A stretch of DNA of 43,852 bases from Clostridium sp. AM22-11AC (GTDB lineage: Bacteria; Bacillota; Clostridia; Lachnospirales; Lachnospiraceae), in the NCBI RefSeq assembly GCF_003473545.1, contig NZ_QUCM01000026.1, positions 1-43,852 on the forward strand. Direction: 5' to 3'. Within the stretch, counting starts at the first letter, position 1. Each line of letters begins with the position of its first letter. A model generated the notes under the pieces. The model saw nothing but the letters and a program-made list of their open reading frames with translations, ran no database searches and had not been told where the DNA came from. The position numbers and the translations under genes were made by a program. Shown one piece after another: positions 22,856 through 42,072 of the stretch.

Positions 22856-24568
22856 ATGCAGGAAAAAAACGTGCAGGGAAAGAAAAAACAGGAAAAGAAA
22901 GTTCAAGGGAATAAATCCCAGGAAAATAGAATACAGGGAAAACGAGTACAGGAAGGCAAAAAACAGGGAAGCCCCAAAAGAGAAAATAAAAGACCGGAAA
23001 GCAGAGCTGTGAAAGGGGTAAAGCCAGAGCAGAAGCAAAGGTCAGAGCAGAAGCAGAGAACAGAGCAGAAACAGAAGGCGGCAAAGTTTGGAAAGCCGGT
23101 TCTGAAACAGCAGTCTGGCCAGAACGTGGAAAAGGGAAAGAAGAACGCTAAAAAGAGCATGTGTCCTGTTATGCGTCAGTGTGGCGGATGTCAGATGCTG
23201 GATATGCCTTATGCAGAGCAGTTAAAGACGAAAAGAAAGCGTCTGGAAACATTGTTGAAGGGAATCTGTCCTGTAAAAGACATGATAGGAATGGAAGATC
23301 CGTTTTATTATAGAAACAAAGTTCATGCTGTATTTGATAGGGATAGAAGGGGCAATATTATTTCCGGTATTTATCAGGAAAATACCCATAATGTAGTACC
23401 TGTGGAGAAGTGCATGATCGAGGACCAGAAGGCAGATGAGATCATTGGCACTATTCGCGGTATGTTAAAGTCCTTTAAGATCCGTACATTTGATGAAGAT
23501 ACTGGTTATGGCTTGCTGCGCCATGTGCTGATCCGCAGAGGCTTTGAAAGTGGGGAGATCATGGTGGTACTGGTAACAGCTTCCCCTGTATTTCCGTCAA
23601 AGAATAATTTCGTAAAGGCATTAAGAGAGAAACATCCGGAGATCACCACCATTGTCCAGAATATCAATGGACGGGGAACCAGCATGGTACTGGGGGAAAA
23701 GGAGCATGTGCTGTATGGAAAAGGATATATTGTGGATACGCTGTGCGGCTGTAGCTTCCGTATTTCTTCCCGTTCTTTCTATCAGGTAAATCCGGCCCAG
23801 ACGGAGAAATTGTATACAAAGGCTCTGGAGCTGGCTGGACTGACTGGAAAAGAGACGGTTGTGGATGCGTATTGTGGTATAGGAACTATTGGTATTATTG
23901 CAAGCAAAAAGGCCGGAAATGTGATCGGCGTGGAATTAAACCAGGATGCAGTCCGGGATGCCATCAACAACGCCAAAATGAACCAGATATCCAATATCCG
24001 TTTCTTCTGCAATGATGCCGGTCGTTTCCTGGTCAATATGGCAGAGGCTGGTGAAAAAGCCGATGTAGTCATCATGGATCCCCCAAGAAGCGGAAGTACC
24101 GAAGAGTTCATGGATTCCATTGCAAAGATGGGAGCGAAAAAAGTAGTTTATGTTTCCTGCAACCCAGAGACATTGGCAAGAGATCTGGCTTATATGAAGA
24201 AGCTGGGGTATAAGGCGAAGGAAGCAGTAGGATTTGATATGTTTCCGGCGACGGAGCATGTGGAGACGGTAGTACTTTTGTCCAAACTCAACACCAAGCA
24301 GCATATCGAGGTGGAGTTGAATCTGGACGAGCTGGATTTGACATCGGCGGAGAGTAAAGCCACCTATGATGAGATCAAAGCCTATGTGCTGGAAAAGCAC
24401 GGCCTGAAGGTGTCCAGCCTGTATATCTCCCAGGTTAAGCGGAAGTGCGGGCTAGATGTGGGGCAGAATTATAATCTGTCAAAGAAAGAAGACGCGAAAG
24501 TGCCACAGTGCCCGCCGGAAAAGAAAGCTGCAATTATGGATGCACTAAAGCATTTTCAAATGATTTGA
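22856..24568 (+). CDS. rlmD: 23S rRNA (uracil-5)-methyltransferase RlmD/RumA, C-terminus replaced by mobile-element tail
   Basis: A 570-aa TrmA/RumA-family enzyme that methylates a uridine of 23S rRNA with SAM. Residues 1 to about 98 are a Lys/Gln-rich low-complexity tail (repeated QEKxVQGK-like units). The [4Fe-4S] site starts at CPVMRQCGGC. Methyltransferase motifs are DAYCGIGTIGIIA, VIMDPPRSG, and VSCNPETLARDL (catalytic Cys). The native protein should end soon after HVETVVLLSK (residues 468-477). Here about 92 further residues follow, with different codon use (YDEIKAYVLEKHGLKVSSLY to PQCPPEKKAAIMDALKHF), supplied by the inserted element. I prefer the start at 22856 (AAAAAGGTG upstream) over 22835, where AGGA is too close. 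Confidence 0.9.
   Translation: MQEKNVQGKKKQEKKVQGNKSQENRIQGKRVQEGKKQGSPKRENKRPESRAVKGVKPEQKQRSEQKQRTEQKQKAAKFGKPVLKQQSGQNVEKGKKNAKKSMCPVMRQCGGCQMLDMPYAEQLKTKRKRLETLLKGICPVKDMIGMEDPFYYRNKVHAVFDRDRRGNIISGIYQENTHNVVPVEKCMIEDQKADEIIGTIRGMLKSFKIRTFDEDTGYGLLRHVLIRRGFESGEIMVVLVTASPVFPSKNNFVKALREKHPEITTIVQNINGRGTSMVLGEKEHVLYGKGYIVDTLCGCSFRISSRSFYQVNPAQTEKLYTKALELAGLTGKETVVDAYCGIGTIGIIASKKAGNVIGVELNQDAVRDAINNAKMNQISNIRFFCNDAGRFLVNMAEAGEKADVVIMDPPRSGSTEEFMDSIAKMGAKKVVYVSCNPETLARDLAYMKKLGYKAKEAVGFDMFPATEHVETVVLLSKLNTKQHIEVELNLDELDLTSAESKATYDEIKAYVLEKHGLKVSSLYISQVKRKCGLDVGQNYNLSKKEDAKVPQCPPEKKAAIMDALKHFQMI
24257..24283 (+). repeat. attL: left attachment site inside rlmD
   Basis: CATGTGGAGACGGTAGTAC matches, in sequence and reading frame, the 3' end of the recombinase gene at 42031-42059. 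Shared perfect runs are TGGAGAC (24261-24267) and GTAGTA (24269-24274). The codon pattern changes to GC-rich immediately after, marking the element's left edge. Confidence 0.75.
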
Positions 24569-24592
24569 TGGCAAGCCTGTCTTACTCAAAGC

Positions 24593-24632
24593 AAAACGTG
24601 GTCTGAGATTCCAATATCCAGACCACGTTTTT
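24593..24632 (+). terminator. Terminator after the extended rlmD
   Basis: AAAACGTGGTCTG pairs with CAGACCACGTTTTT, a 13-bp perfect stem with a T-run. Confidence 0.85.
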
Positions 24633-24666
24633 GCCAATCAATAGCTCACGATTTCGTGAATTTTAT

Positions 24667-24695
24667 TTGTCTTTTAGCACAATATCCGTTATACT
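24667..24695 (+). promoter_or_regulatory. Promoter of the XRE-hsdMS operon
   Basis: TTGTCT (24667-24672) and TATACT (24690-24695) have a 17-bp spacer, 30 bases before the XRE start. Upstream, AGCTCACGATTTCGTGAATT contains a short inverted repeat (TCACGA/TCGTGA, 24646-24659), a possible operator. Confidence 0.7.
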
Positions 24696-24725
24696 AGTAA
24701 ATAGGAAAAAATCAGGAGGTGCGGG

Positions 24726-24953
24726 ATGGCAATCAGTTACAATCGGCTGTGGAAACAGTTGATCGATCATGGTTTGAGCAAAACCGACATGATGCACCGT
24801 GCAAAAATCAGCACCAATGTTTTAGCACGATTAAGTAAAGGTGAGCCTGTCTCCATGGACAGCATGGAAAAAATCTGCACCATGCTGGGATGCAATATCG
24901 GAGACGTGATGGAATTTATCCCTGATACAGAAAACGGAGGAATAGATGCATGA
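24726..24953 (+). CDS. Small XRE-family regulator of the restriction-modification operon
   Basis: A 75-aa single HTH domain of the Cro/CI type (SKTDMMHRAKISTNVLARLSKGEPVSMDSMEKICTMLGC). It is preceded by AGGAGG and ends with a 4-base ATGA overlap with hsdM. Its size and position resemble controller (C) proteins that delay restriction until methylation is established. That role is inferred from position. Confidence 0.85.
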   Translation: MAISYNRLWKQLIDHGLSKTDMMHRAKISTNVLARLSKGEPVSMDSMEKICTMLGCNIGDVMEFIPDTENGGIDA

Positions 24954-26482
24954 TTACAGGTGTGATTAAAAATAAAGTAGATAAAATCTGGACGGACATC
25001 TGGGCGGGCGGCATTACCAATCCTCTAACCGTCATCGAACAGCTGACCTATCTTATGTTTATCCGCTCTCTGGACGAAAAAGAGCTGGAAACGGAAGAAT
25101 TTGAGCATATGACTGGCGAGAAGATGGAGAAGATTTTCCCCCAGTCTGCCGTTGGACAGTCCATGCGCTGGAGTAAATTCAAGAACAACGATCCCCGCGA
25201 TATTTTCAATGTAATTTCCCAGCGGGTCTTCCCTGCCATCAAAAACATGAAACATGGCCGCCTGCCGGACTTCACCGAGCAGGGGGAACTGGTGGAAATC
25301 GCCGACGATTCCAGCAGTGATGTGCAGAATGAGACGGCCTTTGCCCGGTACATGAGCGATGCGATGTTCCTGATTCCTACGCCGCAGGTGTTGCAAAAAA
25401 TCATCACAGGGTTGGATGACCTGTATGAGCATGACATTGCCGATCTGGATATGCAGGGCGACTTGTACGAGTACATGCTGGGCAAACTGGCCACCGCTGG
25501 GCAGAACGGCCAGTTTCGCACTCCCAAGCACATCCGGGAAATGATGGTGGAGTTGTTGCAACCCACCCCGGATGACACCATCTGCGACCCGGCCTGCGGC
25601 ACGGCAGGCTTTCTGGTCTCCGCTGCGGAGTACATTCGCAACCACTACGAGGATACCATGACTTCCGAGCAGTGGGAGCACTTTGCTGGGGACGCCTTCA
25701 CCGGCTTTGACACAGACCGCACCATGCTGCGCATTTCTGCGATGAACCTGATGCTGCACTCCATCAGCCACCCGGAGATCGACTACAAGGACAGTGTTTC
25801 CAAGCAGAATCAGATCAGCGATAAGTTTACCATGTGTCTGGCAAATCCGCCTTTCAAGGGCACCGTGGACGCGGAAAGCATCAACGACAACCTGAAAGCC
25901 GTGACCAACACCAAAAAGACCGAGCTGTTGTTTCTGGCGCTGTTCCTGCGGATGCTGAGAAAGGGTGGTCAGTGCGCCTGCATCGTGCCGGACGGCGTGC
26001 TGTTCGGCTCCTCCAAGGCGCACAAAGCTATTCGCAAAGAACTGGTGGAGAACCATCAGCTGCGGGCGGTGATCTCTATGCCCTCCGGCGTGTTCAAGCC
26101 TTATGCAGGAGTTTCCACGGCAGTGTTGGTGTTCACCAAGACAGGCGCAGGCGGCACCGAAAATGTGTGGTTCTATGATATGAAGTCCGATGGCTTTTCC
26201 TTGGACGATAAGCGCAGCGAGGTGGAGGAGAATGACATCCCCGACATCATCGAGCGGTTCCACCATCTGGACCAGGAAGCTGACCGCAAGCGCACGGAGC
26301 AGAGCTTTTTTGTGCCGAAACAGGAAATTGCGGACAATGACTATGACTTATCCATCAACAAGTACAAAAAGGTGGAGTATGTGCCGGTGGAGTACCCCTC
26401 TACCACAGAACTGATGGCAGACCTGCATGAGCTGGAACTGGAGATTACCGCAGGGCTGGCGGAATTGGAGGAGATGCTATGA
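24950..26482 (+). CDS. hsdM: Type I restriction-modification DNA methyltransferase subunit
   Basis: A 510-aa N6-adenine methyltransferase. The N-terminal helical HsdM_N region spans about 5-150. The SAM-binding motif DPACGTAGFL lies at about 213-222 and the catalytic NPPF at 299-302. The C-terminal segment around 340-400 (CACIVPDGVLFG) is typical. With HsdS it methylates the recognition site; with HsdR it forms the restriction complex. Codon use is GC-rich. It overlaps both neighbours by ATGA junctions. Confidence 0.96.
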   Translation: MITGVIKNKVDKIWTDIWAGGITNPLTVIEQLTYLMFIRSLDEKELETEEFEHMTGEKMEKIFPQSAVGQSMRWSKFKNNDPRDIFNVISQRVFPAIKNMKHGRLPDFTEQGELVEIADDSSSDVQNETAFARYMSDAMFLIPTPQVLQKIITGLDDLYEHDIADLDMQGDLYEYMLGKLATAGQNGQFRTPKHIREMMVELLQPTPDDTICDPACGTAGFLVSAAEYIRNHYEDTMTSEQWEHFAGDAFTGFDTDRTMLRISAMNLMLHSISHPEIDYKDSVSKQNQISDKFTMCLANPPFKGTVDAESINDNLKAVTNTKKTELLFLALFLRMLRKGGQCACIVPDGVLFGSSKAHKAIRKELVENHQLRAVISMPSGVFKPYAGVSTAVLVFTKTGAGGTENVWFYDMKSDGFSLDDKRSEVEENDIPDIIERFHHLDQEADRKRTEQSFFVPKQEIADNDYDLSINKYKKVEYVPVEYPSTTELMADLHELELEITAGLAELEEML

Positions 26483-27600
26483 TGGCGAGGTTAGAAGAAA
26501 TTTGTGCGATAAATATGGGACAGTCTCCGGATTCTTCCACATACAACGAAGATGGTAACGGCCTTCCGTTTTTTCAGGGAAATGCAGATTTTGGAGAGAT
26601 TTATCCTGCGGTTCGTATGTGGTGCTCTGAGCCAACCAAAATAGCACGAGAAAAAGATATTTTAATCTCTGTTCGTGCACCTATTGGTGCGTTGAATATC
26701 GCAAATTGTGAATGCTGTATAGGCCGAGGGTTAGCCGCTTTAACGGTAAACGAGGATATTTGTGCTCAGGAATATTTATGGCATGTGTTATCAGGTAAGG
26801 TTGACGAACTAAATTCCAAGGGTACTGGAAGTACATTCAAGGCCATCAATAAAAAAACTCTTTCTGAAACAGAAATTCCCCTTCCACCCATTGACGAACA
26901 GCGCAAAATTGCAGCGGTGCTGGACAAGGTCAGCGGCCTGATTGCCAAACGCCGCCAGCAGCTGGACAAGCTGGATGAGATAGTCAAGGCAAAGTTTGTG
27001 GAGATGTTTGGAGACCCGGTGGGAAACCCTATGGGGTGGGAGAAAATTGCACTGGGAAAACGATGTGATATAGTTACCGGAAACACGCCCTCGCGTGCTG
27101 ATCCCGAGAATTATGGGAATTTTATTGAATGGATTAAATCAGATAATATCAATACCCCTGCTGTATTGCTCACAGAGGCACAGGAATACTTATCGGAGAC
27201 AGGTTTTCATAAGTGTAGATTTGTAGAGGCGGGCAGCTTGCTTATGACTTGTATCGCTGGAAGCATTAACTGTATAGGCAATGTAGCAGTAACTGATCGT
27301 CGGGTGGCATTTAATCAGCAAATTAATGCTATTGTTCCAAAGCAAGATGATGTGCTGTATTTATATTGGCTTATGCTACTATCAAAGCCTGCAATACATA
27401 GCACCATAAATATGGCACTTAAAGGGATACTAAGCAAGGGACAACTATCAGAAATGGCCTTTCCCTTCCCACCACTAGAACTACAGAATCAATTTTCCGT
27501 GTTTGTAAAGAAAACCGAAAAAACAAAAGCCAACATTAACCGCAGCCTCGAAAAGCTGGAAACGTTGAAAAAGGCACTGATGCAGGAATACTTTGGGTGA
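26479..27600 (+). CDS. hsdS: Type I restriction-modification specificity subunit
   Basis: A 373-aa two-TRD specificity subunit. TRD1 covers about residues 1-135, followed by the central conserved helix region (LPPIDEQRKIAAVLDKVSGLIAKRRQQLDKLDEIVKAKF). TRD2 covers about 185-330, and the final coiled-coil helix region is LELQNQFSVFVKK to ALMQEYFG. The conserved spacers are GC-rich like hsdM while both TRDs are AT-rich, the mosaic expected when TRDs are exchanged. The start overlaps the hsdM stop. No second hsdS copy or recombinase for shuffling lies beside it. Confidence 0.94.
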   Translation: MMARLEEICAINMGQSPDSSTYNEDGNGLPFFQGNADFGEIYPAVRMWCSEPTKIAREKDILISVRAPIGALNIANCECCIGRGLAALTVNEDICAQEYLWHVLSGKVDELNSKGTGSTFKAINKKTLSETEIPLPPIDEQRKIAAVLDKVSGLIAKRRQQLDKLDEIVKAKFVEMFGDPVGNPMGWEKIALGKRCDIVTGNTPSRADPENYGNFIEWIKSDNINTPAVLLTEAQEYLSETGFHKCRFVEAGSLLMTCIAGSINCIGNVAVTDRRVAFNQQINAIVPKQDDVLYLYWLMLLSKPAIHSTINMALKGILSKGQLSEMAFPFPPLELQNQFSVFVKKTEKTKANINRSLEKLETLKKALMQEYFG

Positions 27601-27609
27601 GGTAATAAA

Positions 27610-27801
27610 ATGGAAGAATATAAATTAACACTGGGGATGGAGCCCACAGACGATTATAAAAAAGCAAAGCAGGATTTGATTCAGGCAATGAGATCAATTC
27701 AAAAATTATCCCCTCAACAGCAGCAAATGTTGGCAGAGGAGTTATTTGGAGCAGCAAATGTTATGGTTTTGAGTCAAATACTACGCCAGTATCTGAGGTG
27801 A
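27610..27801 (+). CDS. Small hypothetical protein in the restriction operon
   Basis: A 63-aa mostly helical protein (EPTDDYKKAKQDLIQAMRSIQKLSPQQQQML) with a Gln run at about 37-40. No family recognised. It starts 9 bp after hsdS and ends 9 bp before the next gene, with GTGAGGT as ribosome-binding region, so it is very likely translated in the operon. Its AT-rich composition matches the three following genes and contrasts with hsdM and hsdR. Confidence 0.65.
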   Translation: MEEYKLTLGMEPTDDYKKAKQDLIQAMRSIQKLSPQQQQMLAEELFGAANVMVLSQILRQYLR

Positions 27802-27810
27802 ATATAAAGT

Positions 27811-28578
27811 ATGTTAGAGTTTATAAAAGATAACTGGGCAAACATTTTGCTTATTATCGTAGGTAGCTTTGCCCTTGCAACTTACATATTGCAGGAACGG
27901 AAGAAAAAGATTGATGCAGCTTCTCTTATCGTCCTTCAAATTGATGAATTTCAGGAGCGGTTAAGGGAAATCTCTACGTTCATTGTTGACGGACAATTAA
28001 ACGAAACGGCGTTCTATGAATCACTACCACTGATGGATACGGATTATTGGAACAAGTACAAACATTACTTTGTCCGAAAAATGGACGCGACCAGCTATAC
28101 AGCACTGAATCAGCTATATGAGTATGTGTCAGAGATTCAGGAACAGCAGATGCTCATGAAGTCATTCCAAAAGAATTCCTTTCAGATAACACAAAATGTT
28201 TTGGCAAATATAGAATCGCAGTTTATTGTGGCCGATCTTAATAATGCTTGTACCGGAGTTACAGCGCAAAATATCACTTCTGCTATGGGAAATATGATTC
28301 CGCAAGGCGTTTCGGAAGCAGATCGAAATACGCTTAACGCAATGGTGCAACAAATAGCGGCACAGAATCCCAATTTTGATATGAATCGTTTTTGGAGCCT
28401 CTATAATCAGCAAAGAAATTGGACGAAGTCTATCATTAACCAAGGGGCATTAACTTCTTATACCCCTGTCCAAATTCGTATAAGTTTAGAGAAAATGCTA
28501 AAGAAATATTCGATGCTTGAAATTAGCGGAACAGAAGGCTATCAAATGCTCAAAAAGACTTCTAAACAAAAGTTTTAA
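27811..28578 (+). CDS. Membrane-anchored hypothetical protein, restriction operon cargo
   Basis: A 255-aa protein with one N-terminal membrane helix (WANILLIIVGSFALATYIL, about residues 9-27) followed by Arg/Lys (positive-inside) and a helical soluble part. A polar alanine/glutamine-rich middle (about 145-200) and a basic C-terminus (KKTSKQKF) follow. No enzyme motif recognised. The preceding GAGGTGAATATAAAGT contains the likely ribosome-binding site. Together with the 63-aa gene it may form a unit; both are of unknown function. Confidence 0.7.
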   Translation: MLEFIKDNWANILLIIVGSFALATYILQERKKKIDAASLIVLQIDEFQERLREISTFIVDGQLNETAFYESLPLMDTDYWNKYKHYFVRKMDATSYTALNQLYEYVSEIQEQQMLMKSFQKNSFQITQNVLANIESQFIVADLNNACTGVTAQNITSAMGNMIPQGVSEADRNTLNAMVQQIAAQNPNFDMNRFWSLYNQQRNWTKSIINQGALTSYTPVQIRISLEKMLKKYSMLEISGTEGYQMLKKTSKQKF

Positions 28579-28596
28579 GCAAGTGAGAGGTCTATT

Positions 28597-29271
28597 ATGG
28601 AAGAAGATGTTACAAAGATATATGAGGAATATTCGGAGGAACTTCTGTTTTGCAAATATTTTATAGCTGAAAAGTTAAAACATCATGCTGAGATGGGTAG
28701 ATGTGGAGAAAACATTCTCAAAAAATGTCTCCAGAAACGGTTTCAAATGCTAGAATTTGTTACCGGCTTTATTGCTTGGGCCAATCATCAAAGTCCACAA
28801 TGTGACATCATCGTATGTAGGAAAAATTTTTATAGACGTCAACTAGCCGGAGACATTTTCCTGGTTGAATCAAATGATTGCATAATGGTTATAGAAGTCA
28901 AAGGAAATGCGACCTTGGATGATTTAACAGAAACGATTGAAAAAAATAAATTTTTCCAATTGCATGATGAAACAAAACATATAAAATTAGCGATGTTTGC
29001 TTTTAAAACTCGTATTGGAAAACAACGATTGTATAAAGAGTTCGGTTATAAATATGACAGAAGTACAAAAGGATATATCCAGGAACGGCTTCCAGAAGAA
29101 AAGACATTAGACTATTTTGTATGCTTACATAGAGAGAGCCTAACTAGCTCAGCACGGGATAAACAAGTATTCTTCTTGAAAGATGGGCAAGATCGGCAGT
29201 TCTATGTACTAGATAACCATTTTCCAATAATGCAGAATTTTTCGAGGCTAATACAAAGCTTGCAGAATTAG
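28597..29271 (+). CDS. Putative PD-(D/E)XK nuclease-like protein (DUF6602-like)
   Basis: A 224-aa protein. After an N-terminal helix region containing GRCGENILKKCL (about 40-51), it shows QCDIIVCRKNF (Asp near residue 70) and then VESNDCIMVIEVKGNATLDDL with an E-x-K pair near 103-105. The Glu, Asp and ExK spacing matches the PD-(D/E)XK nuclease core, and the overall look recalls DUF6602 proteins. Nuclease activity is inferred from this motif only. GTGAGAGG (28583-28590) precedes the start. It is the third AT-rich gene between hsdS and hsdR. Confidence 0.7.
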   Translation: MEEDVTKIYEEYSEELLFCKYFIAEKLKHHAEMGRCGENILKKCLQKRFQMLEFVTGFIAWANHQSPQCDIIVCRKNFYRRQLAGDIFLVESNDCIMVIEVKGNATLDDLTETIEKNKFFQLHDETKHIKLAMFAFKTRIGKQRLYKEFGYKYDRSTKGYIQERLPEEKTLDYFVCLHRESLTSSARDKQVFFLKDGQDRQFYVLDNHFPIMQNFSRLIQSLQN

Positions 29272-29355
29272 GGCTAGATAAAATGATGATTTCTTGATCG
29301 ATTTTAGCGCTGAGAAGATTTGAATATAGGAAATATTGGTGGGAGCAACATTGTC

Positions 29356-30342
29356 ATGGAATATACAGAGGTTTTAGACAAGCAAATCACGAGAAAACAA
29401 CATTATGTCCCCAAGGCTTACTTAAAAAACTTTTCTGTGAGTAATCAAAAATCAGAACAAGTTTATGTTGTTTTTGCTAATGATGAAAATGCAAAAATAG
29501 TTTCAATCGACAATATTTGCTGTCGTTCTTACCTATATGATCAAATTGCAATTGATCCAGATAGCAAAACTCATATTTTTGCAGCACCAAATGAGATCGA
29601 GAACAGTTTTATCGAACTGGAAGGCGAATACGCAACAATTATCTCAAAGATAAAAAATGCTTTACGAGATTCAGATGAATTTGAGTTGGTGCGGGTGGAA
29701 ATTGATAAACTAAGGCAATTTATGTCATCACTACTGTTTAGAAACCCTGTTTTTGTACATCTGTCAAATTATACTATTGATACACAATACAAAAACGATC
29801 CGCAGCATATTAAACATGTAAAGGACATTTTTCCTGATGTACCGCAAAATGTTTACCTGTCCATGCTGGCAAACGAGTTTTTGAAGATGAACATTGCTCC
29901 GGATGTTGGCTTGTTTCCTCGGGCTTTGGCTGAGACAATGAAGGAATCGCAACTGTGTATTTTTAAAGCCAAAGGTTCCGTATTTGTTACAAGCGATATG
30001 CCGGTAGTCAATATTTACGGTGAAAAAGATGGTATAGAATATGACTTGCTTGGTATGCCAATTACGCCAGAATTATTTTTAGCGTTTGTCGATACTGTTC
30101 AGCGCGTTCCCAGAATAATCATAATTGATGACAACAGTGTAAAGCGCATGAACAGCAAGCAGATAAATAAAGATCTGTTAATTTCTAACCGTATAGACTT
30201 ATTATCGTATATTGATTTTTCAATAGATGCCGAAAAAGAAGATGATGAACAGGTTTACCAACTACTTCATACAGATAAGGAAACCGCGTTGAAACAATAT
30301 GAGGACATGATGAGTTCAAAAGAAATAAAATACTGGAGATGA
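29356..30342 (+). CDS. DUF4238-family protein
   Basis: A 328-aa protein beginning MEYTEVLDKQITRKQHYVPKAYLKNF; the QHYVPxxYLKNF pattern is the signature of DUF4238. The later segment VFVTSDMPVVN (about 215) and the C-terminal half also fit. The biochemical role is unknown to me; such genes are often met in mobile and defence regions. I prefer the ATG at 29356 (GGTGGGAG 10 bases upstream) to a TTG at 29320. Its stop overlaps the ribosome-binding region of hsdR, so expression is coupled. Confidence 0.8.
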   Translation: MEYTEVLDKQITRKQHYVPKAYLKNFSVSNQKSEQVYVVFANDENAKIVSIDNICCRSYLYDQIAIDPDSKTHIFAAPNEIENSFIELEGEYATIISKIKNALRDSDEFELVRVEIDKLRQFMSSLLFRNPVFVHLSNYTIDTQYKNDPQHIKHVKDIFPDVPQNVYLSMLANEFLKMNIAPDVGLFPRALAETMKESQLCIFKAKGSVFVTSDMPVVNIYGEKDGIEYDLLGMPITPELFLAFVDTVQRVPRIIIIDDNSVKRMNSKQINKDLLISNRIDLLSYIDFSIDAEKEDDEQVYQLLHTDKETALKQYEDMMSSKEIKYWR

Positions 30343-30346
30343 TGTG

Positions 30347-33300: not shown

Positions 33301-33724
33301 GAATACGCTGGCCATATATAAGCTGACCCATAATATTCCGCTGGCTATGGGCGATTATCAGGAACTGGAGCGGGTGCTAACTAGCGAATTGGGCAGCAAA
33401 GAAGATTATGCCCGAGAGTTTGGCGACACACCCTTTGGCTTGCTCATTCGCAAGATCGCTAAGCTAGATCATGAAGCGGCTATGCAGGCGTTTTCCGCTT
33501 TTATCAATGACCAATCTCTGAATCAAAAGCAGATTGCTTTTGTAAACAAAATCATCAATCATATTGAGTTGAACGGATATATGGAAAATGTCGCAGAGCT
33601 GACCAAGCCACCGTTTGACAAGCCAATCAGTTTTATCAAATTGTTTGATGCAAAAACCAGAACCGCTTTGATGGAGACTATCAATCAGGTTCGAGAAAAC
33701 GCGGTTCAAATTACAGCGTCATAA
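30347..33724 (+). CDS. hsdR: Type I restriction enzyme motor/nuclease subunit
   Basis: An 1125-aa subunit that translocates and cuts unmethylated DNA. Residues 1-115 resemble DUF4145 (CRKALELAVKWVY), then a coiled coil (about 145-195). The PD-(D/E)XK nuclease comes next (GFCDYVLFGKDG and VVEAKRT, Glu260/Lys262). The SF2 helicase has Walker A ATGTGKTRT (about 370), DESH (about 473), GLTATP (about 497) and the C-terminal motif QMIGRGTRLC. A helical C-terminal domain follows. GGAG at 30335-30338 suits the ATG at 30347. GC-rich like hsdM. Confidence 0.96.
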   Translation: MTNFSFLKAKTEYALFAPACMEAEKIYVSAPAMCAVGCRKALELAVKWVYAADKSMKMPYKDNLQSLIHEPTFRFAVDSDTWGKMPFIIKLGNLAVHTERSVQPSDALASLRGLFEFVQWIDYCYGADYQERTFDENLVPTGKVAVDTQKIKKQESLLDQKDAEIEALRKQIEQMSTRYTAEKEQHQKERTFQPEDLSEFKTRKIYIDVDLKLMGWKFTGPDADVQEEYRVEDMAGMPGQPGFCDYVLFGKDGLPLAVVEAKRTSKDPNIGRKQAVLYADCLERKFGRRPMMFTTNGFETYFWDDQTAPQRKVSGIFSKDDLQKLMNRRTERMDLMGVSIDDKITDRYYQKEAIRAVCEQITQGFRKHLLVMATGTGKTRTASSLTDVLSRGKWVTNILFLADRTALVKQAKDDFKNYLPDMSLCNLCSNKDDRNARIVFSTYPTILNAIDDTKSKDGRQLFTPAHFDLIIIDESHRSIFKKYRAIFEYFDAFMVGLTATPKTDVDRNTYDFFEMEHGVPTYAYDYETAVQRDHVLVPYYNYEVKTRFLEEGISYDDLSEEDKERYEDDFIEDGQLPDFIPSAALNKFVFNETTVDIVLQDLMDRGIKVAGGDRLGKTILFAQNKRHAEFILERFNKLYPQYRGSFAQRVICDDAYAQTIIDDFKQPEKEPHIAVSVDMMDTGIDVPECVNLVFFKKVRSKAKFWQMIGRGTRLCKGLACVDQIDGTYTDKRRFLIFDYCGNFEYFRQHKEGYETRETKTLSENIFGKQIKVAMALQESTFAGEDYQAWRKEIVNTCHKQVIALNSDLIAVKLRMQYVEKYKKPEAFVSISEGDKGELLTQIAPLVRSDEADEFAKRFDNFMYGLILAHIEQMPAFQYAKKQLCDTASLLERKASIPQIKAKLPMLQEIHTDAFWDANDILLFEKVRKELRELIRFLDEGGGAQRQIVTKLTDPIIDSQEGVQLEAAYDFEDYRAKVNRYVNEHGNTLAIYKLTHNIPLAMGDYQELERVLTSELGSKEDYAREFGDTPFGLLIRKIAKLDHEAAMQAFSAFINDQSLNQKQIAFVNKIINHIELNGYMENVAELTKPPFDKPISFIKLFDAKTRTALMETINQVRENAVQITAS

Positions 33725-33730
33725 ACAATG

Positions 33731-34242: not shown

Positions 34243-35085
34243 TCAGTGTTTCTTCCGCTTCCCTTTGCCGTGGGTCATGGTCGTTTTCCCACGCTGGCTG
34301 ATGGGAGTTTTCAGGTGTTTGGACAGCTTCAGCACCTCGATCAAGTTGACAAACTGTTCCATTGTAATGGCATCATAATCGATCCCTAATGTGGCAAGTA
34401 ATGCTTTTGCTTTCTTTTCTTCCGAGCTTCCCTCAAAGTTCATTGCATCCTGCAACTGACCCTGCATGGTTGCGGCGAGGGATGTTTCATCTGCCGTCAT
34501 GGTATCAGGGCGGTGTTCACTCCGAATATCACGAAGGATGCCTTTTAGGTCATCTGCAATCAGACTTCCGAAATATTCATCTTCCCGAATCTGCGCCACT
34601 TCTAATGTCCGCAGATGCAGGTCATTTTCTTCGCCGCCATTTTTCATCAACGCCATCTGCCGGACGGCTTCCAGCACGGCGTTCATATCGTTGACCCGCA
34701 TATCCGCAATCCGGTCAACGTAAATCTCAGCGTCCAGCATGAACCGCTGGAAATCTTTATGGCAGATCAGCTCCGACAGCAGCCGGTGGTTGAACTTGCC
34801 TGTTCTTAATACATCAATCGAAGCATCACTCAAATGCAGCTCATGCAGAGCTGTGTTTGGGTGATTTTTTGTTTCCGTTCGTCCCATCAGGTAGTCGCAG
34901 GAAACACCGTAATAGTCAGCCAGCAACAGAATGCTGTACGGGCTGATGTCCTTGCCGTTATCTGATTCATATTTGCCAAGTGCGGATTTCGAGATACCCA
35001 CCTCGGCGGCAAGCTGCTCCAAGGTCAGCTTTTGTTCTACTCGTAAATCCTTCAACCGCTCTCCGATTGTCAGCTTGACTTGCAT
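34243..35085 (-). CDS. XRE-family regulator of the mobile element
   Basis: A 280-aa protein with an N-terminal HTH_3 domain (IGERLKDLRVEQKLTLEQLAAEVGISKSALGKYE, about residues 7-41, then ILLLADYYGVSCDYLMG). A long helical C-terminal region of unknown function follows, with a basic tail (KGKRKKH). This type sits divergent to the primase genes in many clostridial elements and is a likely element repressor. GGAGG lies just upstream on the minus strand. Confidence 0.85.
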   Translation of the reverse strand: MQVKLTIGERLKDLRVEQKLTLEQLAAEVGISKSALGKYESDNGKDISPYSILLLADYYGVSCDYLMGRTETKNHPNTALHELHLSDASIDVLRTGKFNHRLLSELICHKDFQRFMLDAEIYVDRIADMRVNDMNAVLEAVRQMALMKNGGEENDLHLRTLEVAQIREDEYFGSLIADDLKGILRDIRSEHRPDTMTADETSLAATMQGQLQDAMNFEGSSEEKKAKALLATLGIDYDAITMEQFVNLIEVLKLSKHLKTPISQRGKTTMTHGKGKRKKH

Positions 35086-35401: not shown

Positions 35402-36022
35402 ATGGGTTTATTTACACAAATCAAGATGGCAGTTTCCGTGAAAGAGGCTGCCGAATACTACGGATTGGGAGTAAATCGTGGCAACATGGTCTGCTGTCCC
35501 TTCCACAATGACCGTACACCCAGTATGAAGCTGAATGAGGATTACTTCTACTGCTTCGGCTGCGGGACAAGCGGCGATGTGATCGACCTTGTGGCAAAGC
35601 TGTTCAACCTGAGCAGCTATGACGCAGCGAAAAAGCTGGCGTATGACTTTGGGATCGACCCGGACAAGCCCCCGGCTGCGGCAGCGCTGCGGAAACCGAA
35701 ATATCCGCTGGCAAAGGCGTTCCAGAGAGAGGAACTGCATTGTCAGCGGGTATTGTGCGATTATCTGCATCTTTTGGAGCGCTGGAAGGTGCAGTGCGCA
35801 CCCAAAGCACCAGATGATACCATTGACGACCGCTTTGTGGAAGCCTGCCAGATGCTCGATTATATCGAGGATCTGGCAGATATTTTAACCTTTGCGGAGT
35901 TGGAGGTTCGTGTGAAAACCGTGGATATGCTTCAAAAGGACGGCATGATCGACCGACTGGAAGAACGCCTGAAACGAGCGGCAAAGGAGGTGGACGCCCG
36001 TGACGAAACGGAAATCGGCTAA
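35402..36022 (+). CDS. CHC2 zinc-finger DNA primase-like protein
   Basis: A 206-aa protein with an N-terminal CHC2 zinc-binding domain: CCPFHNDRTPSMKLNEDYFYCFGCG (about residues 30-54), then GDVIDLVAKLFNLSSYDAAKKLAYDFGI. It is much shorter than full DnaG and lacks the TOPRIM domain, as in mobile-element versions that work with a separate primase-helicase. It overlaps the next gene by 23 bases. Confidence 0.9.
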   Translation: MGLFTQIKMAVSVKEAAEYYGLGVNRGNMVCCPFHNDRTPSMKLNEDYFYCFGCGTSGDVIDLVAKLFNLSSYDAAKKLAYDFGIDPDKPPAAAALRKPKYPLAKAFQREELHCQRVLCDYLHLLERWKVQCAPKAPDDTIDDRFVEACQMLDYIEDLADILTFAELEVRVKTVDMLQKDGMIDRLEERLKRAAKEVDARDETEIG

Positions 36023-37367
36023 TTTAGACGCGCCTATCTGGTTTGATGGCACGAATATTAACGAGGCACTGTTCTGTGATGAATTTCTGAACAGCCGGAA
36101 AATCATCTTTGCCAACGGTGCTTTCTTTACGCCGGACGGCAGGGTGACCGACGATCTGCCGCTCCGGGGCGAAATCTATGAGGAACTGAAATGCTGCGCC
36201 GTGAACAACATCCCCCGCAAAATCACCAACATTCTGAAAGTGATGAAGCTGGCAGCTCATGTGGAGGACTTTACACCGGAAGCAGATAGAATCCATCTGG
36301 TAAACGGTACTTTGGCGCTGGACGGCAGCTTTACCGAGGGCAGACCGAGCATTGTACGGAGCAGACTGCCGGTGGCATACCGCCCTGACGCACCGACTCC
36401 CGTTCGGTGGCTTTCCTTTCTGGATGGACTTCTTTACGCGGAGGACATTCCCACCTTGCAGGAGTTCATCGGTTATCGCCTGATTCCCAGCAATAAAGGA
36501 CAGCGCATGATGGTGATTAAAGGAAACGGCGGCGAAGGAACATCACAGATCGGCGCTGTGCTGGGTGCGCTTCTCGGCAGCAATATGAAGGACGGCAGCA
36601 TCGGGAAGATTTCCGAAAACCGTTTTGCCCGCGCGGATCTGGAACACATTCTGTTGTGTGTGGATGACGATATGCGAATGGAAGCACTGCGGCAGACCAA
36701 CTATGTCAAGTCCATCGTGACCGCCCAAGGAAAAATGGATTTGGAGCGCAAGGGTAAGCAGAGCTATCAGGGCTGGATGTTTGCCCGGCTGCTGGCGTTC
36801 TCCAATGGCGATCTGCAAGCGCTATATGACCGAAGCGACGGATTTTACCGCCGCCAGCTTGTACTGACCACCAGGGAAAAGCCTGTGGGACGGATAGATG
36901 ATCCCGACCTTGCGGAGAAAATGAAAGCTGAAGCCGAGGGCATCTTCCTGTGGGCGTTTGAGGGCTTGCAGCGGCTGGTTGCCAACAACTTCAAATTCAC
37001 AGAGAGCCAGCGTACGCGGGACAATCGGGAGGCAGTGAAGCGGGATAACAACAATGTCTTTGATTTTTTGGAATCCGAGGGTTATATCCGGCTGAAGGCG
37101 GACTGCACTATCAGCTCTAAAGATTTGTACGAGATTTACCGGATGTGGTGTGAGGAAAACAATCTGACACCGCTAAAGCGCCGCAGTTTCAGCGAGAATG
37201 TGATTGCGAACCAAAGTAAGTACAATCTAGAATATTGCAACAAGATCACCAATGCTGCCGGACGGCGTGTATGGGGCTTCTTTGGTATTGAAGCGATTGC
37301 AAAACCCAATATAAATGGGTTTTCCGAGATTTCAGAGCATACGTACGTACCGGAGGACTGGCGATGA
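36000..37367 (+). CDS. P4/D5-type phage/plasmid primase-helicase
   Basis: A 455-aa D5-like SF3 helicase. The D5_N region occupies about 60-150. Walker A is GNGGEGTSQIGA (about 175-186) and Walker B ILLCVDDDMRME (about 218-229). The segment KQSYQGWMFARLLAFSNGDL fits motif C. A C-terminal winged-helix region (about 340-420) follows. It probably replicates the excised element circle. The start is a GTG at 36000 inside the primase gene, with AAAGGAGG at 35983-35990. Confidence 0.88.
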   Translation: MTKRKSANLDAPIWFDGTNINEALFCDEFLNSRKIIFANGAFFTPDGRVTDDLPLRGEIYEELKCCAVNNIPRKITNILKVMKLAAHVEDFTPEADRIHLVNGTLALDGSFTEGRPSIVRSRLPVAYRPDAPTPVRWLSFLDGLLYAEDIPTLQEFIGYRLIPSNKGQRMMVIKGNGGEGTSQIGAVLGALLGSNMKDGSIGKISENRFARADLEHILLCVDDDMRMEALRQTNYVKSIVTAQGKMDLERKGKQSYQGWMFARLLAFSNGDLQALYDRSDGFYRRQLVLTTREKPVGRIDDPDLAEKMKAEAEGIFLWAFEGLQRLVANNFKFTESQRTRDNREAVKRDNNNVFDFLESEGYIRLKADCTISSKDLYEIYRMWCEENNLTPLKRRSFSENVIANQSKYNLEYCNKITNAAGRRVWGFFGIEAIAKPNINGFSEISEHTYVPEDWR

Positions 37368-37477: not shown

Positions 37478-37641
37478 TAGGGTGTATCTGAAAACTCATG
37501 ATGTGACCGGCAGCGAGGGATTTTTACGTTGCGCAAGACATTTTTCCGCAGGAATACTGACGTATTTCAAGGAAAAATGGTGCGGCACAGCGTGAAAAGA
37601 CCCGCTGTCCGGGTGCGTTGGGAGTTTTCAGATACACCCTA
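37478..37641. mobile_element. MITE-like insertion with 20-bp perfect terminal inverted repeats
   Basis: The ends TAGGGTGTATCTGAAAACTC (37478-37497) and its exact complement (37622-37641) enclose 124 bp without coding capacity. If TA is the target duplication, the repeat is 18 bp bounded by TA on both sides, as in IS630/mariner-like elements; an IS5-type origin is the alternative. It sits in the gap between the primase-helicase and the small protein at 37923. Confidence 0.75.
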
Positions 37642-37922: not shown

Positions 37923-38141
37923 ATGAGCATCAGAAATGAGATCAAATCGCAGATCGTCCGCGCCGGTTTTACCATGCAGGAGGTCGTTGACCGGCTGGCC
38001 GACGAATACGATTGGAGCGATAGCGTCTCCAATCTGTCCGCAAAATTGCAGCGGGAGAGCATCCGCTACAAGGAGGTCGTGGAGCTGGCCGATGTGCTGG
38101 ACTGTGACATCGTGTGGGTGAAGCGAGGTCAGCGCCGATGA
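37923..38141 (+). CDS. Small HTH-like protein preceding the relaxase
   Basis: A 72-aa protein (MSIRNEIKSQIVRAGFTMQEVVDRLA to DIVWVKRGQRR) with a phage-repressor-like helical pattern, reminiscent of DUF6471-type proteins of mobile elements. I take the ATG at 37923 after GGGAGG; the frame is open further upstream but crosses a terminator hairpin. It overlaps the relaxase start (ATGA), suggesting a role in mobilization or its control. Confidence 0.75.
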   Translation: MSIRNEIKSQIVRAGFTMQEVVDRLADEYDWSDSVSNLSAKLQRESIRYKEVVELADVLDCDIVWVKRGQRR

Positions 38142-39115
38142 AAGCACAGTACGCCATTCTCCGCTTCGCCAAGTACAAGGGGCCGGAGATCGGGCATATC
38201 GAGTCCCACAATGAGCGCACCAAGGAGAAATACACCAGCAATCCCGACGTGGACATGTCCCGCAGTCACCTGAATTTTCATCTGGTGACACCGCAGCGCA
38301 AGTACCGCACAGAGGCAGAAAAGCAGATTGCCGAGGCGGGCTGCCGCACCCGTTCCGACAGCGTGCGCGTGGTGGAGGCGCTGGTGACAGCCAGCCCGGA
38401 GTTCTTCAAGGGGAAGAAGAAAAGTGAGGTCAAAGCCTACTTTCAGGAGGCGCTGGACTTTATCCGGGAACACCAAGACCCGAAAACCATTATCTCCGCT
38501 GTGGTGCATATGGACGAGAAAACGCCCCATATGCACCTTTGCTTTGTCCCACTGACAGAGGATGGACGGCTTTGCGCCAAAGAAATCGTAGGCAACAAGA
38601 AAAAGCTGACGCAGTGGCAGGACAGGTTTTGGGAGCATATGGTCAAAAAATATCCCGATCTGGAACGTGGCGAGAGTGCCAGTGAGACCGGACGCGACCA
38701 TATCCCGCCGCGGGTATTCAAGGAAATGACTCGCCTGACCAAGCAGAAGGCCAAGCTGGAAGAATTGCTTTCAGGCGTCAATGCGTTCAATGCCAAAGGA
38801 AAAGCAGCAGAAATCGGCGCTTTTTTGGACAAGTATATTCCTGCTGTGGAGCAGATGCACACGGCACTGAAAAAGTACAATACGGCGTTCACGGTCACGA
38901 CTGCCGAAAATAAAAAGCTGAAAAAGAAAACGGAGCAGTTGGAGCAGTCGCTGGACAAAGCCACGCAGGAAAGCACCTTGAAAAAGCTGGCTGACGCCAA
39001 GCTGCATCGGGATTATGAGGATGCCGTCGCCGTGCTGGATCGTATTCCGAAGGAAGTGCTGGCGGCATATACGCACAGAACGGAGAAAGAGAGGGAAACT
39101 GCCTATGGTAGATGA
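38138..39115 (+). CDS. MobV-family (Pre/Mob) relaxase
   Basis: A 325-aa relaxase that nicks the transfer origin. Motifs are MKAQYAILRFAKYKG (N-terminal signature), DMSRSHLNFHLV (motif II, SxxNxH-like), and VVHMDEKTPHMHLCFVPLT (the HxDExTPHxH metal-binding motif III, about residues 128-137). Residues about 200-325 are a coiled-coil tail. GAGG at 38125-38128 fixes the start at 38138 within the upstream stop. No coupling protein is encoded nearby. Confidence 0.9.
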   Translation: MKAQYAILRFAKYKGPEIGHIESHNERTKEKYTSNPDVDMSRSHLNFHLVTPQRKYRTEAEKQIAEAGCRTRSDSVRVVEALVTASPEFFKGKKKSEVKAYFQEALDFIREHQDPKTIISAVVHMDEKTPHMHLCFVPLTEDGRLCAKEIVGNKKKLTQWQDRFWEHMVKKYPDLERGESASETGRDHIPPRVFKEMTRLTKQKAKLEELLSGVNAFNAKGKAAEIGAFLDKYIPAVEQMHTALKKYNTAFTVTTAENKKLKKKTEQLEQSLDKATQESTLKKLADAKLHRDYEDAVAVLDRIPKEVLAAYTHRTEKERETAYGR

Positions 39116-39281: not shown

Positions 39282-39294
39282 TATAATTATCATG
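39259..39294 (+). promoter_or_regulatory. Promoter with overlapping palindromic operator for the RhuM-family gene
   Basis: TTGAAT (39259-39264) and TATAAT (39282-39287) have a 17-bp spacer. CATGATA (39277-39283) and TATCATG (39288-39294) form a perfect 7-bp palindrome centred on the -10, an ideal repressor site. Confidence 0.7.
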
Positions 39295-39313
39295 AAATAA
39301 GTGTCCAAACTCC

Positions 39314-39341
39314 CATTGCAGGAGCAAAAGCTCCTGCAATG
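39314..39341 (+). other. Perfect 12-bp hairpin in the RhuM leader
   Basis: CATTGCAGGAGC (39314-39325) and GCTCCTGCAATG (39330-39341) enclose AAAA. There is no T-run, so it is a leader structure rather than a terminator. It lies 24 bases before the start codon and could affect translation or mRNA stability. Confidence 0.6.
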
Positions 39342-39364
39342 GCAGAAAACGAGGTGAAGCGACC

Positions 39365-40375
39365 ATGGAACGCTGGGAGAATGAGCAGAACAATTCTGAA
39401 ATGATGATTTATACCACAGAGGATGGCTTGACAAAGATCGAAACGACCTTCGATGGAGATACGGTTTGGCTGTCCATTGACCAGATGGCGGAGCTGTTTC
39501 AGCGTGACAAATCTACCATTTCCAGACATATCAAGAACATTTTCACTGAGGGCGAATTGAAGCGAGAAGAAGTTGTTGCAAATTTTGCAACAACTGCCGC
39601 TGACGGCAAAATTTATCAGGTGGATTACTATAATCTCGATGTCATCATTTCTGTCGGCTACCGTGTGAAATCTCAGCGCGGCGTGCAGTTTCGTATTTGG
39701 GCAACGGGGATTTTGAAGGAGTATATGCGAAAAGGCTTTGCTCTGGATGATGAGCGCCTGAAAAATCTGGGTGGCGGCGGATACTTCAAGGAGCTGCTGG
39801 AGCGTATCCGCGATATCCGCGCTTCCGAAAAGGTGTTTTATCGACAGGTGCTTGAAATCTACGCCACCAGTATTGACTATGACCCCAAGGCGGAAATCTC
39901 CATTCAGTTTTTCAAGAAAGTCCAAAATAAAATTCATTATGCCATTCATGGGCAAACCGCGGCGGAGGTCATCTACACACGTGCCGATGCGGAGAAAGAA
40001 TTTATGGGATTGACCACCTTTGCGGGCAGTCAGCCCACGCTGAAAGAGGCAGTAGTTGCCAAGAACTATCTGAACGAGAAAGAGCTTCGTGCTATGGGGC
40101 AGCTTGTATCCGGCTATCTGGATTTTGCGGAACGACAGGCGGAGCGGGAGCAGGCAATGACCATGCAGGACTGGTCGGAGCATCTTGATCGGATTTTGAC
40201 TATGAGTGGAGAGCAACTGCTGATTGGCAACGGAAGCGTCAGCCATAAGCAGGCTATCGACAAAGCAACCGGCGAGTACAGAAAATACAAAGCCCGCACC
40301 CTTAGTGAAGTGGAGCGGGATTATCTGGATTCCATCAAGCTGTTGGAGCAGAAAACGGATAACAAGCAAGGCTGA
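39365..40375 (+). CDS. RhuM-family protein
   Basis: A 336-aa member of the virulence-associated RhuM family. The N-terminal half has a DNA-binding-like segment SIDQMAELFQRDKSTISRHIKNIF (about residues 37-60) and the family core YNLDVIISVGYRVKSQRGVQFRIWATGILKEYMRKGF (about 93-129). The C-terminal half is helical and conserved (YFKELLERIRDIRASEKVFYRQV). The biochemical role is unknown; the HTH and operator-like promoter suggest autoregulation. GAGGTG precedes the ATG. A perfect 10-bp inverted repeat (39572-39581 with 39585-39594) lies inside the coding region. Confidence 0.85.
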   Translation: MERWENEQNNSEMMIYTTEDGLTKIETTFDGDTVWLSIDQMAELFQRDKSTISRHIKNIFTEGELKREEVVANFATTAADGKIYQVDYYNLDVIISVGYRVKSQRGVQFRIWATGILKEYMRKGFALDDERLKNLGGGGYFKELLERIRDIRASEKVFYRQVLEIYATSIDYDPKAEISIQFFKKVQNKIHYAIHGQTAAEVIYTRADAEKEFMGLTTFAGSQPTLKEAVVAKNYLNEKELRAMGQLVSGYLDFAERQAEREQAMTMQDWSEHLDRILTMSGEQLLIGNGSVSHKQAIDKATGEYRKYKARTLSEVERDYLDSIKLLEQKTDNKQG

Positions 40376-40389
40376 CTGAGGATATGACA

Positions 40390-42072
40390 ATGAAAAAAGA
40401 AAGGATAAGAGTCTATATCTATACGCGCGTGTCCACCGCCATGCAGATTGACGGATATTCTCTGGATGCACAGAAATCCAGAATGAAAGCCTATGCTGAC
40501 TTCAACGATTATGAAATTGTGGGCGAATATGAGGACGCCGGAAAATCCGGTAAGTCCATAGAGGGTAGAATCCAGTTCAATCAGATGATGGAGGACATCA
40601 AGTCTGGCAAGGACGGCGTGTCCTATGTGCTGGTGTTCAAGCTCTCGCGCTTCGGTAGAAATGCGGCAGATGTCTTGTCTACCTTACAGGTCATGCAGGA
40701 TTTTGGCGTCAACCTGATTTGCGTGGAGGATGGGATCGATTCCTCCAAGGATGCAGGAAAGCTGATGATTTCCGTTCTCTCTGCTGTGGCTGAAATTGAG
40801 CGTGAAAATATCCGTGTGCAGACCATGGAGGGCAGAATCCAGAAAGCCCGTGAAGGGAAATGGAACGGCGGTTTTGCACCTTATGGCTACAGGCTGGAAA
40901 AAGGGCAGCTTTTCATCAATGAGGAAGAAGCTGCGGCAATCCGCGTGATTTTTGACCAGTATGTGCATACGGATACCGGTGCAAACGGTCTTGCAAAATA
41001 TCTTGCGACCCACGGGATTCACAAGATCCAAAGGCAAAACGGGAAAAATCCCCTGTTTGATTCTGCGTTGATCCGCAGGATTCTGAAAAATCCGGTATAC
41101 TGCGGGAAAATCGCCTATGGCAGACGTCGGACGGAGAAGGTGCATGGCACCCGAAATGATTACCGGTTGGTGGAGCAGGACAATTATCTGCTGGTGGACG
41201 GACTGCATGAGGGAATTGTCTCCGAAGAACTATGGCACGAGGCGCAGGTCAAGCTGCTGGCGCAAGCGGAAAAATACGAACGCGTCAACAGAGGCAAGGA
41301 TACAAAAATACATCTGCTGTCCGGTATCGTGAAATGCCCGGTTTGCGGCGTAGGAATGTATGGAAACAAAAGCATCAAGCACAAGGCGGACGGCACAAAA
41401 TACAAGGATTTTTATTACTACGGCTGCAAGCACCGCACGATGACCCATGGACATAAATGCGACTATAAGAAGCAGATCAATGAAGAATTGCTGGACAGCG
41501 CCGTTGCGGAGGTTATCGTAAAGCTGGTAAGCAATCCGAAGTTCGCTGCCATGATGCAGGAAAAAATCAGCATGAAGGTGGATACCTCTTCCATTGAGCA
41601 GGAGATTGCGGCGCATGAAAAGCAGCTTCGCCAGAGCTACTCCGTAAAGGCTCGGCTGATGGATGAGATTGATTCCCTCGACCCGGACGATAAGCATTAC
41701 ATCAAACGCAAAGCAGACCTTGATGACCGGCTCTACAAGATGTATGATAAGATCGAGGATGCGGAAAACCAACTCGTTGCCGCCAGAGCCAAGAAGATGG
41801 CGATTGAGGCGGAAAAGCTGACAGGCGACAACATCTACAAGGTGCTGATTTACTTTGATAAGCTCTATTCCGTCATGGACGATCAGGAAAAGCGGCAGCT
41901 TATGGAATCGCTGCTTTCCGAAGTCCAGATTTATGAGGAACGGCAGCCCAACGGTCAGTGGCTTAAGTCCATCAAATTCAAGCTCCCAATCATTGCGGAA
42001 GATATGAGCTTGAGTTTGGACAATGATGCACATATGGAGACTGTAGTATTGATGTCAAGAAAAGATAAATAA
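40390..42072 (+). CDS. Large serine recombinase, integrase of the element
   Basis: A 560-aa large serine recombinase. The resolvase domain has YTRVSTAMQ with nucleophile Ser15, FKLSRFGRNAADVL, and ISVLSAVAEIERENIRVQT. The Recombinase domain is at about 155-280 and a zinc beta-ribbon (CPVCGVGMYG and YYYGCKH) at about 313-355. A coiled coil at about 390-480 is followed by the C-terminal tail HMETVVLMSRKDK. The last 13 codons match the rlmD 3' end in frame and are probably chromosomal (attR). I prefer the ATG at 40390 (GAGG 8 bases upstream) to 40384. It starts 9-15 bases after rhuM. Confidence 0.93.
   Translation: MKKERIRVYIYTRVSTAMQIDGYSLDAQKSRMKAYADFNDYEIVGEYEDAGKSGKSIEGRIQFNQMMEDIKSGKDGVSYVLVFKLSRFGRNAADVLSTLQVMQDFGVNLICVEDGIDSSKDAGKLMISVLSAVAEIERENIRVQTMEGRIQKAREGKWNGGFAPYGYRLEKGQLFINEEEAAAIRVIFDQYVHTDTGANGLAKYLATHGIHKIQRQNGKNPLFDSALIRRILKNPVYCGKIAYGRRRTEKVHGTRNDYRLVEQDNYLLVDGLHEGIVSEELWHEAQVKLLAQAEKYERVNRGKDTKIHLLSGIVKCPVCGVGMYGNKSIKHKADGTKYKDFYYYGCKHRTMTHGHKCDYKKQINEELLDSAVAEVIVKLVSNPKFAAMMQEKISMKVDTSSIEQEIAAHEKQLRQSYSVKARLMDEIDSLDPDDKHYIKRKADLDDRLYKMYDKIEDAENQLVAARAKKMAIEAEKLTGDNIYKVLIYFDKLYSVMDDQEKRQLMESLLSEVQIYEERQPNGQWLKSIKFKLPIIAEDMSLSLDNDAHMETVVLMSRKDK
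42031..42059 (+). repeat. attR: right attachment site at the recombinase 3' end
   Basis: CATATGGAGACTGTAGTAT aligns with attL in the same reading frame, with perfect runs TGGAGAC (42035-42041) and GTAGTA (42043-42048). The encoded peptide HMETVVLMSRKDK followed by a stop resembles the usual RlmD C-terminus. Confidence 0.75.

Follow-up and report, generated by a model that had tools for sequence, protein, structure and literature searches.

An integrated element that probably swaps C-terminal coding ends in frame between RlmD and its own serine recombinase

The 43,852-nucleotide stretch of Clostridium sp. AM22-11AC analysed here (contig NZ_QUCM01000026.1, hereafter the window) raises the question of why the end of rlmD, which encodes a 23S rRNA methyltransferase, matches the end of a serine recombinase gene further along the same strand, and what this means for the two proteins. 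We consider an integrated, tail-swapping element to be the best explanation, with a probability of roughly 85%. The element lies in the last codons of rlmD and measures 17,774 bp (24263-42037). Its large serine recombinase would have joined an attachment (att) site in its own 3' end, attP, with an attB in the last rlmD codons. The exchange would have taken place at the GA of a Glu codon and in frame on both sides, giving a 100-residue tail to RlmD and the last 10 residues of RlmD to the recombinase. Excision would restore rlmD, and the circle would encode a 652-residue recombinase-tail protein. The features on which this reading rests are as follows.

22835-24262, forward strand: host-derived stretch of rlmD, ending at the att core and encoding the 23S rRNA uracil-1939 methyltransferase (TIGR00479; open reading frame (ORF) 22835-24568, 577 residues)
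24263-24264, forward strand: attL core GA within the Glu codon (GA in all 24 left junctions; conservation switches side here)
24265-24568, forward strand: element-encoded tail in the RlmD frame, T478-I577 (100 residues) and stop (tracks the recombinase and not the host RlmD; dN/dS 0.09; no Pfam family at gathering score)
40384-42072, forward strand: large serine recombinase ORF, 562 residues, with the element part reaching residue 552 (PF00239, PF07508, PF13408 by Pfam)
42037-42038, forward strand: attR core GA within the recombinase gene (GA in 88 of 93 right junctions)
42039-42072, forward strand: host-type rlmD 3' end closing the recombinase, TVVLMSRKDK and stop (resembles the ends of the untailed RlmDs L099 and L132)

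The left site, CATGTGGAGACGGTAGTA, starts at 24257 in the RlmD ORF and the right site, CATATGGAGACTGTAGTA, at 42031 in the recombinase ORF. They match at 16 of 18 bases, and the codons read from them (HVETVVLLSK and HMETVVLMSRKDK followed by a stop) are in the same phase in their respective ORFs; the first-pass annotation had pointed out this agreement and it held when the ORFs were checked. The longest exact run is the 7-bp TGGAGAC at 24261-24267 and 42035-42041, which was not among the 20 families listed by a repeat search with a 20-nucleotide minimum and is weak evidence by itself. The att sites are convincing because comparison with relatives supports them, not because of the repeat alone, and a chance repeat as the source of the match was rejected on the same comparison.

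A total of 93 right junctions were compared, from 80 genome loci, 10 viral contigs, one phage record, one plasmid and the window (L090 and L095, which are cut off, and L081, which has no anchor, were omitted); L094 is an exact copy of L010, so that no more than 92 of the loci are distinct. For the left side, 24 junctions with type-A tails were picked by hand. Codons 5' of the Glu codon were found to be largely conserved at the right junctions while those 3' of it vary by host. At the left junctions, the codons preceding His-Val-Glu are variable and 16 of the 23 positions from the codon after Glu are invariant, including all of +12 to +22 and their wobble positions. The GA of the Glu codon was present in 24/24 left and 88/93 right junctions. 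This pattern would place the crossover at 24263-24264 and 42037-42038, within one or two bases. A 2-bp core with an arm of about 25 bp is consistent with large serine recombinases. The recombinase ORF closes with 34 bp of host-type rlmD sequence, which puts the end of the element near 42037 rather than at 42072, where it had been placed before. The TIGR00479 match in a profile search covers RlmD residues 104-477 and stops there, so the methyltransferase part ends where the tail starts. That the tail on RlmD is encoded by the element stood; its length of about 92 residues did not, as the tail comprises 100 residues, 93 of them after VVLLSK.

Is the reading frame kept on both sides? Short ends were observed in 78 of the 93 right-junction recombinases. 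In 76 of these 78 an RlmD-like strand motif follows in frame with the recombinase, against 4 and 10 for the other two frames. In the window, the recombinase closes with 10 host codons and its end, VVLMSRKDK, resembles those of untailed RlmDs (VVLMSRVEK in L099 and AVLISKEDK in L132), as had been proposed for both the rlmD-like ending and the in-frame exchange. On the other side, the first residues of the tail, TVVLLS, complete the conserved RlmD end, which leaves the host gene readable in both states. In line with this, and with the second role that the first-pass annotation had suggested for the swap, a host gene kept functional at both stages, none of the 37 tail-bearing RlmD rows from an RlmD search of recombinase-bearing genomes has an internal stop.

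Alternatively, RlmD of this lineage could have the tail as its own native extension, with only an incidental likeness to the recombinase end. A protein search with the tail region, which scored at least 7,990 candidates, returned RlmD-like proteins (by Pfam domains) as its best 120. This explanation is contradicted by RlmDs whose cores are 98-100% identical to that of the window (residues 100-484), since some of them (P0171, P0194 and P0195, at 98-99%) end short and others bear at least four kinds of tail. At the protein level, the comparison of rlmD ends among relatives that the first-pass annotation had proposed came out in its favour. Among 17 genomes of one genus, 11 had a strong RlmD match, of which 10 were readable, three of them tailed and seven untailed. 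As the tail also follows the element, a native extension was rejected and we regard it as scarcely credible.

The association of the tail with the element was observed in several ways. The recombinase of genome G002 is 96.4% identical to that of the window and its tail 91%, on an RlmD core that is 39.6% identical. Across 23 elements, tail distances correlated with recombinase distances (Mantel test, r 0.43, p 0.001) and not with RlmD distances (r -0.02). For this test 24 genomes were entered, G004 and G024 were dropped because the junction motif was not found, and the window was added; G016 and G025 lie outside the set. RlmD was searched in the genomes of 41 of the 80 recombinase loci, and a tailed RlmD was found in 34 of the 41 (7 of the 41 being without one by this count). 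In 26 of the 41 genomes the tailed RlmD and a recombinase share strand and contig, with the recombinase downstream: the distance is 7.1-23.1 kb in 23 of them and 58 and 73 kb in two more, and the last has an abutting partial copy. In 8 of the 34 the two are on separate contigs. The tail is thus a property of the element and not of the host RlmD.

The tail is under purifying selection, with a median ratio of nonsynonymous to synonymous rates (dN/dS) of 0.09 in 89 usable pairs, the att region being excluded (44 tails, first seven codons omitted, 89 of 946 pairs with dS of 0.05-1.2 kept). Eight invariant positions are common to 33 tails with identities as low as 35%. In the AlphaFold model the tail forms three helices, the first two in a helix-turn-helix-like spacing, with a mean predicted local distance difference test (pLDDT) score of 65 alone; in a model of the L001 fusion the score is 68-88 over the tail helices and below 50 in the linker (532-582). 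That the tail might bind DNA is offered as a suggestion from the model only. Pfam gave only weak, scattered matches on the 33 tails (best E 0.0052; Ribosomal_L23 in seven and HTH_33 in two), and phrog_27283, whose function is unknown, matches 32 of the 33. Neither a sequence relative of the tail in the PDB below E 0.029 nor a match in a structural search (best E 2.5) was found.

Conservation of the tail could also reflect a function on the host side, in the RlmD-tail protein (stability, targeting or supply of the tail in trans), in which case the recombinase fusion would be a by-product. The element is integrated in the genomes seen, which makes RlmD-tail the commonest form observed; the 37 tail-bearing rows without internal stops agree with such a function and tails may persist without a recombinase (G001 and G007, below). 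We consider it distinctly unlikely because tail distances are uncorrelated with those of RlmD and a near-identical tail is found on RlmD cores that are 40% identical. We tentatively suggest, at not quite even odds, that the tail works mainly in the circular-form recombinase as an extra domain that aids binding of att DNA or sets direction.

Proteins of the kind predicted for the circle were observed in nature. The recombinase reads into a full tail in 11 of the 80 genome loci, with L019 extending past the end of its contig. When the 138 C-terminal residues of the protein predicted for the circle served as query, the best 120 matches listed included 43 proteins outside our other protein sets; 39 of these are recombinase-tail fusions spread over several clades of recombinase, and the joint is E|T in all 43. 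The viral records MT839491 and MT835749 also carry such fusions and are linear records without terminal repeats; no terminal repeats were found in 13 viral loci. The fusions indicate that a recombinase-tail protein reads through and is tolerated, and most of them need not be circles. The earlier prediction of a circle-encoded fusion alongside a native rlmD end is therefore borne out in that fusions at the predicted codon exist, and for the rlmD end by short RlmD ends at the protein level only.

Several fusions have a stacked arrangement. In G001, G006, G007 and G008, rlmD with tail A precedes a window-type recombinase that is fused to a type-D or type-C tail. G032 has rlmD with tail D and then a second-type recombinase fused to tail A, and in L088 a window-type recombinase with tail D comes before a short-ended recombinase of the second type. 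These orders suggest that elements insert into rlmD ends which already bear a tail. Reading the fused recombinases as tandem arrays of live elements was cut back: a second recombinase is present in L088 and further ones lie on the G032 contig, but no second PF07508 recombinase was found on the contigs of G001 and G007, where the outer tail may be what a lost or decayed element left behind as a scar. The G006 and G008 contigs end shortly past the fusion.

It may also be that the tail has no regulatory role, the in-frame exchange only sparing rlmD and the tail being an ordinary C-terminal domain of the recombinase that is dispensable once integrated. The in-frame ends (76/78) are compatible with this, and the recombinase frame stays open whether it ends in host codons, a foreign tail or a short tail. 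The strong conservation of the tail across clades argues against it, as does the altered integrase behaviour that follows a comparable change in phage Mx8 (PMC6070905, PMC4701971, in their accessible parts), and we consider it rather unlikely. Conversely, the tail may be a detachable directionality module: the circle recombinase with its tail would integrate, integration would move the tail onto RlmD in frame, and the short form left behind would either be suited to excision or stay inactive as long as RlmD-tail does not provide the tail in trans. This proposal is unlikely as it stands. If true, it would describe a state sensor common to several recombinase clades with at least four tail types, which stacked insertions would rewire by giving a recombinase a foreign tail.

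Several observations weigh against the tail-swapping interpretation or parts of it. Genome sets of 397, 17 and 295 members, which partly overlap, contained neither a genome nor empty-site DNA of the window's species, the nearest core being 84% identical, and no circle of this element was seen. L129, one of the seven untailed RlmDs, has a tail-like stretch out of frame just past its stop and is a case against perfect frame keeping. The correlation between tail and recombinase falls to r 0.20 (p 0.02) when the divergent recombinase of G032 is left out; as the tail and recombinase ends adjoin in the circle, linkage alone could also yield it. Tail and recombinase type are not strictly tied, G023 pairing a D-like tail with a window-type recombinase. 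Fusions of related recombinases to a different tail type are numerous, and a matching tail may thus be dispensable. In G001 and G007 a related element lies in an rlmD that already bore another tail, with no second PF07508 recombinase on those contigs, and tails can therefore outlast elements. The fold of the tail is predicted at modest confidence and without a structural match. Lastly, the elements of L036, L037, L040, L048 and L070 seem to have short or no tails. Their ends, like that of P0199, are 20-40 residues long with a tail-like start (e.g. SNRKPDTKVRIDVDL) and an early stop, and possibly form a class of short or truncated tails. Taken together, the observation made in the first-pass annotation was confirmed and its interpretation partly supported.

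The tail was also observed in other settings. The region of L168 (G027 C16, 1089-2441) encodes an RlmD paralogue, 34% identical, with the tail in frame and a window-type recombinase 14 kb downstream; the paralogue may be an integration target. In L108 (G016 C22), a recombinase reduced to its C-terminal two thirds directly follows a tailed RlmD, which would fit an internal deletion that fused two element ends. P0283 contains a Y-family polymerase domain (PF00817) and terminates in a type-A tail, the joint being HLE|T; it looks like an insertion into a second target gene. Plasmid pAPRE01 (L084, Anaerococcus) holds two tails, at 11420-11719 and 14001-14300, one behind a distant recombinase in another frame and one behind a short RlmD-like fragment. 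A small 'hypothetical protein' at 16897-17148 of NZ_KT448821.1 (L181, 4052-4303), in the spw / lsa(E) interval of an Enterococcus resistance cluster, resembles a type-B tail, and relatives of the tail query occur in 94 plasmid records, 88 of them from Enterococcus.

Between the two junctions, the element carries the following genes.

24726-24953, forward strand: small Cro/C1-type helix-turn-helix protein (PF13443)
24950-33724, forward strand: type I restriction-modification genes hsdM (24950-26482), hsdS (26479-27600) and hsdR (30344-33724) (Pfam, PADLOC)
34243-35085, reverse strand: HTH_3 regulator (domain match)
35402-37367, forward strand: CHC2 zinc-finger protein and P4-type primase (domain matches)
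38114-39115, forward strand: MobV relaxase (PF01076; NF041497 above cut-off)
39365-40375, forward strand: RhuM family protein (PF13310)

The element is probably mobilizable, given its MobV relaxase. Pfam found no mating-pair genes among its larger ORFs, the small ORFs being only partly scanned. Three extra ORFs sit amid the restriction-modification genes, between hsdS and hsdR (27811-30342): one without a family, a DUF6602 protein with a PD-DExK match and a DUF4238 protein. These may be additional defence genes. Upstream of the MobV gene is a perfect 20-nucleotide inverted repeat (arms 37478-37497 and 37622-37641, 124 nucleotides apart), a candidate regulatory or transfer-origin structure. The G+C content is 49.5-51.4% in seven of the nine two-kb blocks of 24001-42000 (44.5% and 35.9% in the remaining two) and 38.9-45.5% in the 12 two-kb blocks left of the element. 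To its right, a 477-residue ORF (42329-43762) had no Pfam or PADLOC match.

The following comparison with known systems draws on the accessible parts of the cited papers. The closest are the streptococcal integrative and conjugative or mobilizable elements in rumA (PMC4701971, PMC5357655), which share with the window the target rumA (= rlmD), a pair of att sites split between rumA and the integrase gene, the reciprocal 3' exchange, two integrase forms and the Pfam architecture. Ambroset 2016 (PMC4701971) reported that rumA and the gene for the serine integrase trade their 3' parts when the conjugative elements integrate, and that the integrase of the excised element has another length and C-terminus, the two forms probably differing in function (citing Mx8). 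The reciprocal exchange and the two forms are therefore already published. Like the rumA elements, the window has a single large serine integrase with Resolvase, Recombinase and the usual zinc-ribbon domains (PF00239, PF07508, PF13408), a short direct repeat in rumA and the integrase gene (2-21 bp there, the 7-bp TGGAGAC here) and a reciprocal 3'-end exchange in which conservation switches side at the core and the tail follows the element. The exchange is said in Ambroset 2016 to change the reading frame of both proteins, whereas the frame is kept in the window and in 76 of the 78 short-ended recombinases; the hosts of the window type are gut Clostridia. We view the frame change as an incidental remark in that paper and not as a defining trait. 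On translation, the streptococcal frame was also found to be kept in the RlmD of YS162 and the recombinase ends of FJZZ32 and Javan105; SgaBSJ27 has a break in its tail frame at a later point.

In Clostridioides difficile, CTn5 moves into rumA and fuses it to an element ORF to give a hybrid protein, with rumA intact by polymerase chain reaction in the parent strain and the added part resembling the C-terminus of Enterococcus RumA (van Eijk 2015, PMC4320837). Such a hybrid is shared with the window; the recombinase side of the swap is not part of the accessible account. In Mx8, attP lies within the integrase gene and integration gives the integrase a new C-terminus that alters its behaviour (PMC6070905), a 112-residue end being exchanged for 13 residues (PMC4701971). 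The window resembles Mx8 in the position of attP and in the new C-terminus, and differs in that it has a serine recombinase and not a tyrosine integrase. The window recombinase may nonetheless work like the integrase of Mx8. The integration-dependent immunity of mycobacteriophage BPs is alike in that an att site in a regulatory gene changes a C-terminus on integration, and unlike in that this gene is the repressor, the sites of the window being in rlmD and the recombinase gene. Integration of BPs reportedly removes a degradation tag from the repressor.

What sets the running direction of serine recombinases is a central question, and according to a review (PMC5704250) no directionality factor is known for mobilizable elements with serine integrases. 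Two forms of the window recombinase are encoded or predicted, and a C-terminus rewritten by the recombinase's own reaction would make direction control testable with two proteins; that these forms control direction is an idea of this testable kind, and the roles named above for the tail swap are candidates only. The same review describes rumA insertions as disruptions, whereas our data suggest that elements reshape rlmD and yet keep it readable, and show that a common C-terminal extension of RlmD in databases stems from mobile elements. The tail was not described as a conserved domain in the literature examined, which lay mostly outside subscription papers. Two points are added here to the published exchange: the reading frame is preserved, and several recombinase clades share a conserved tail domain that has no name.

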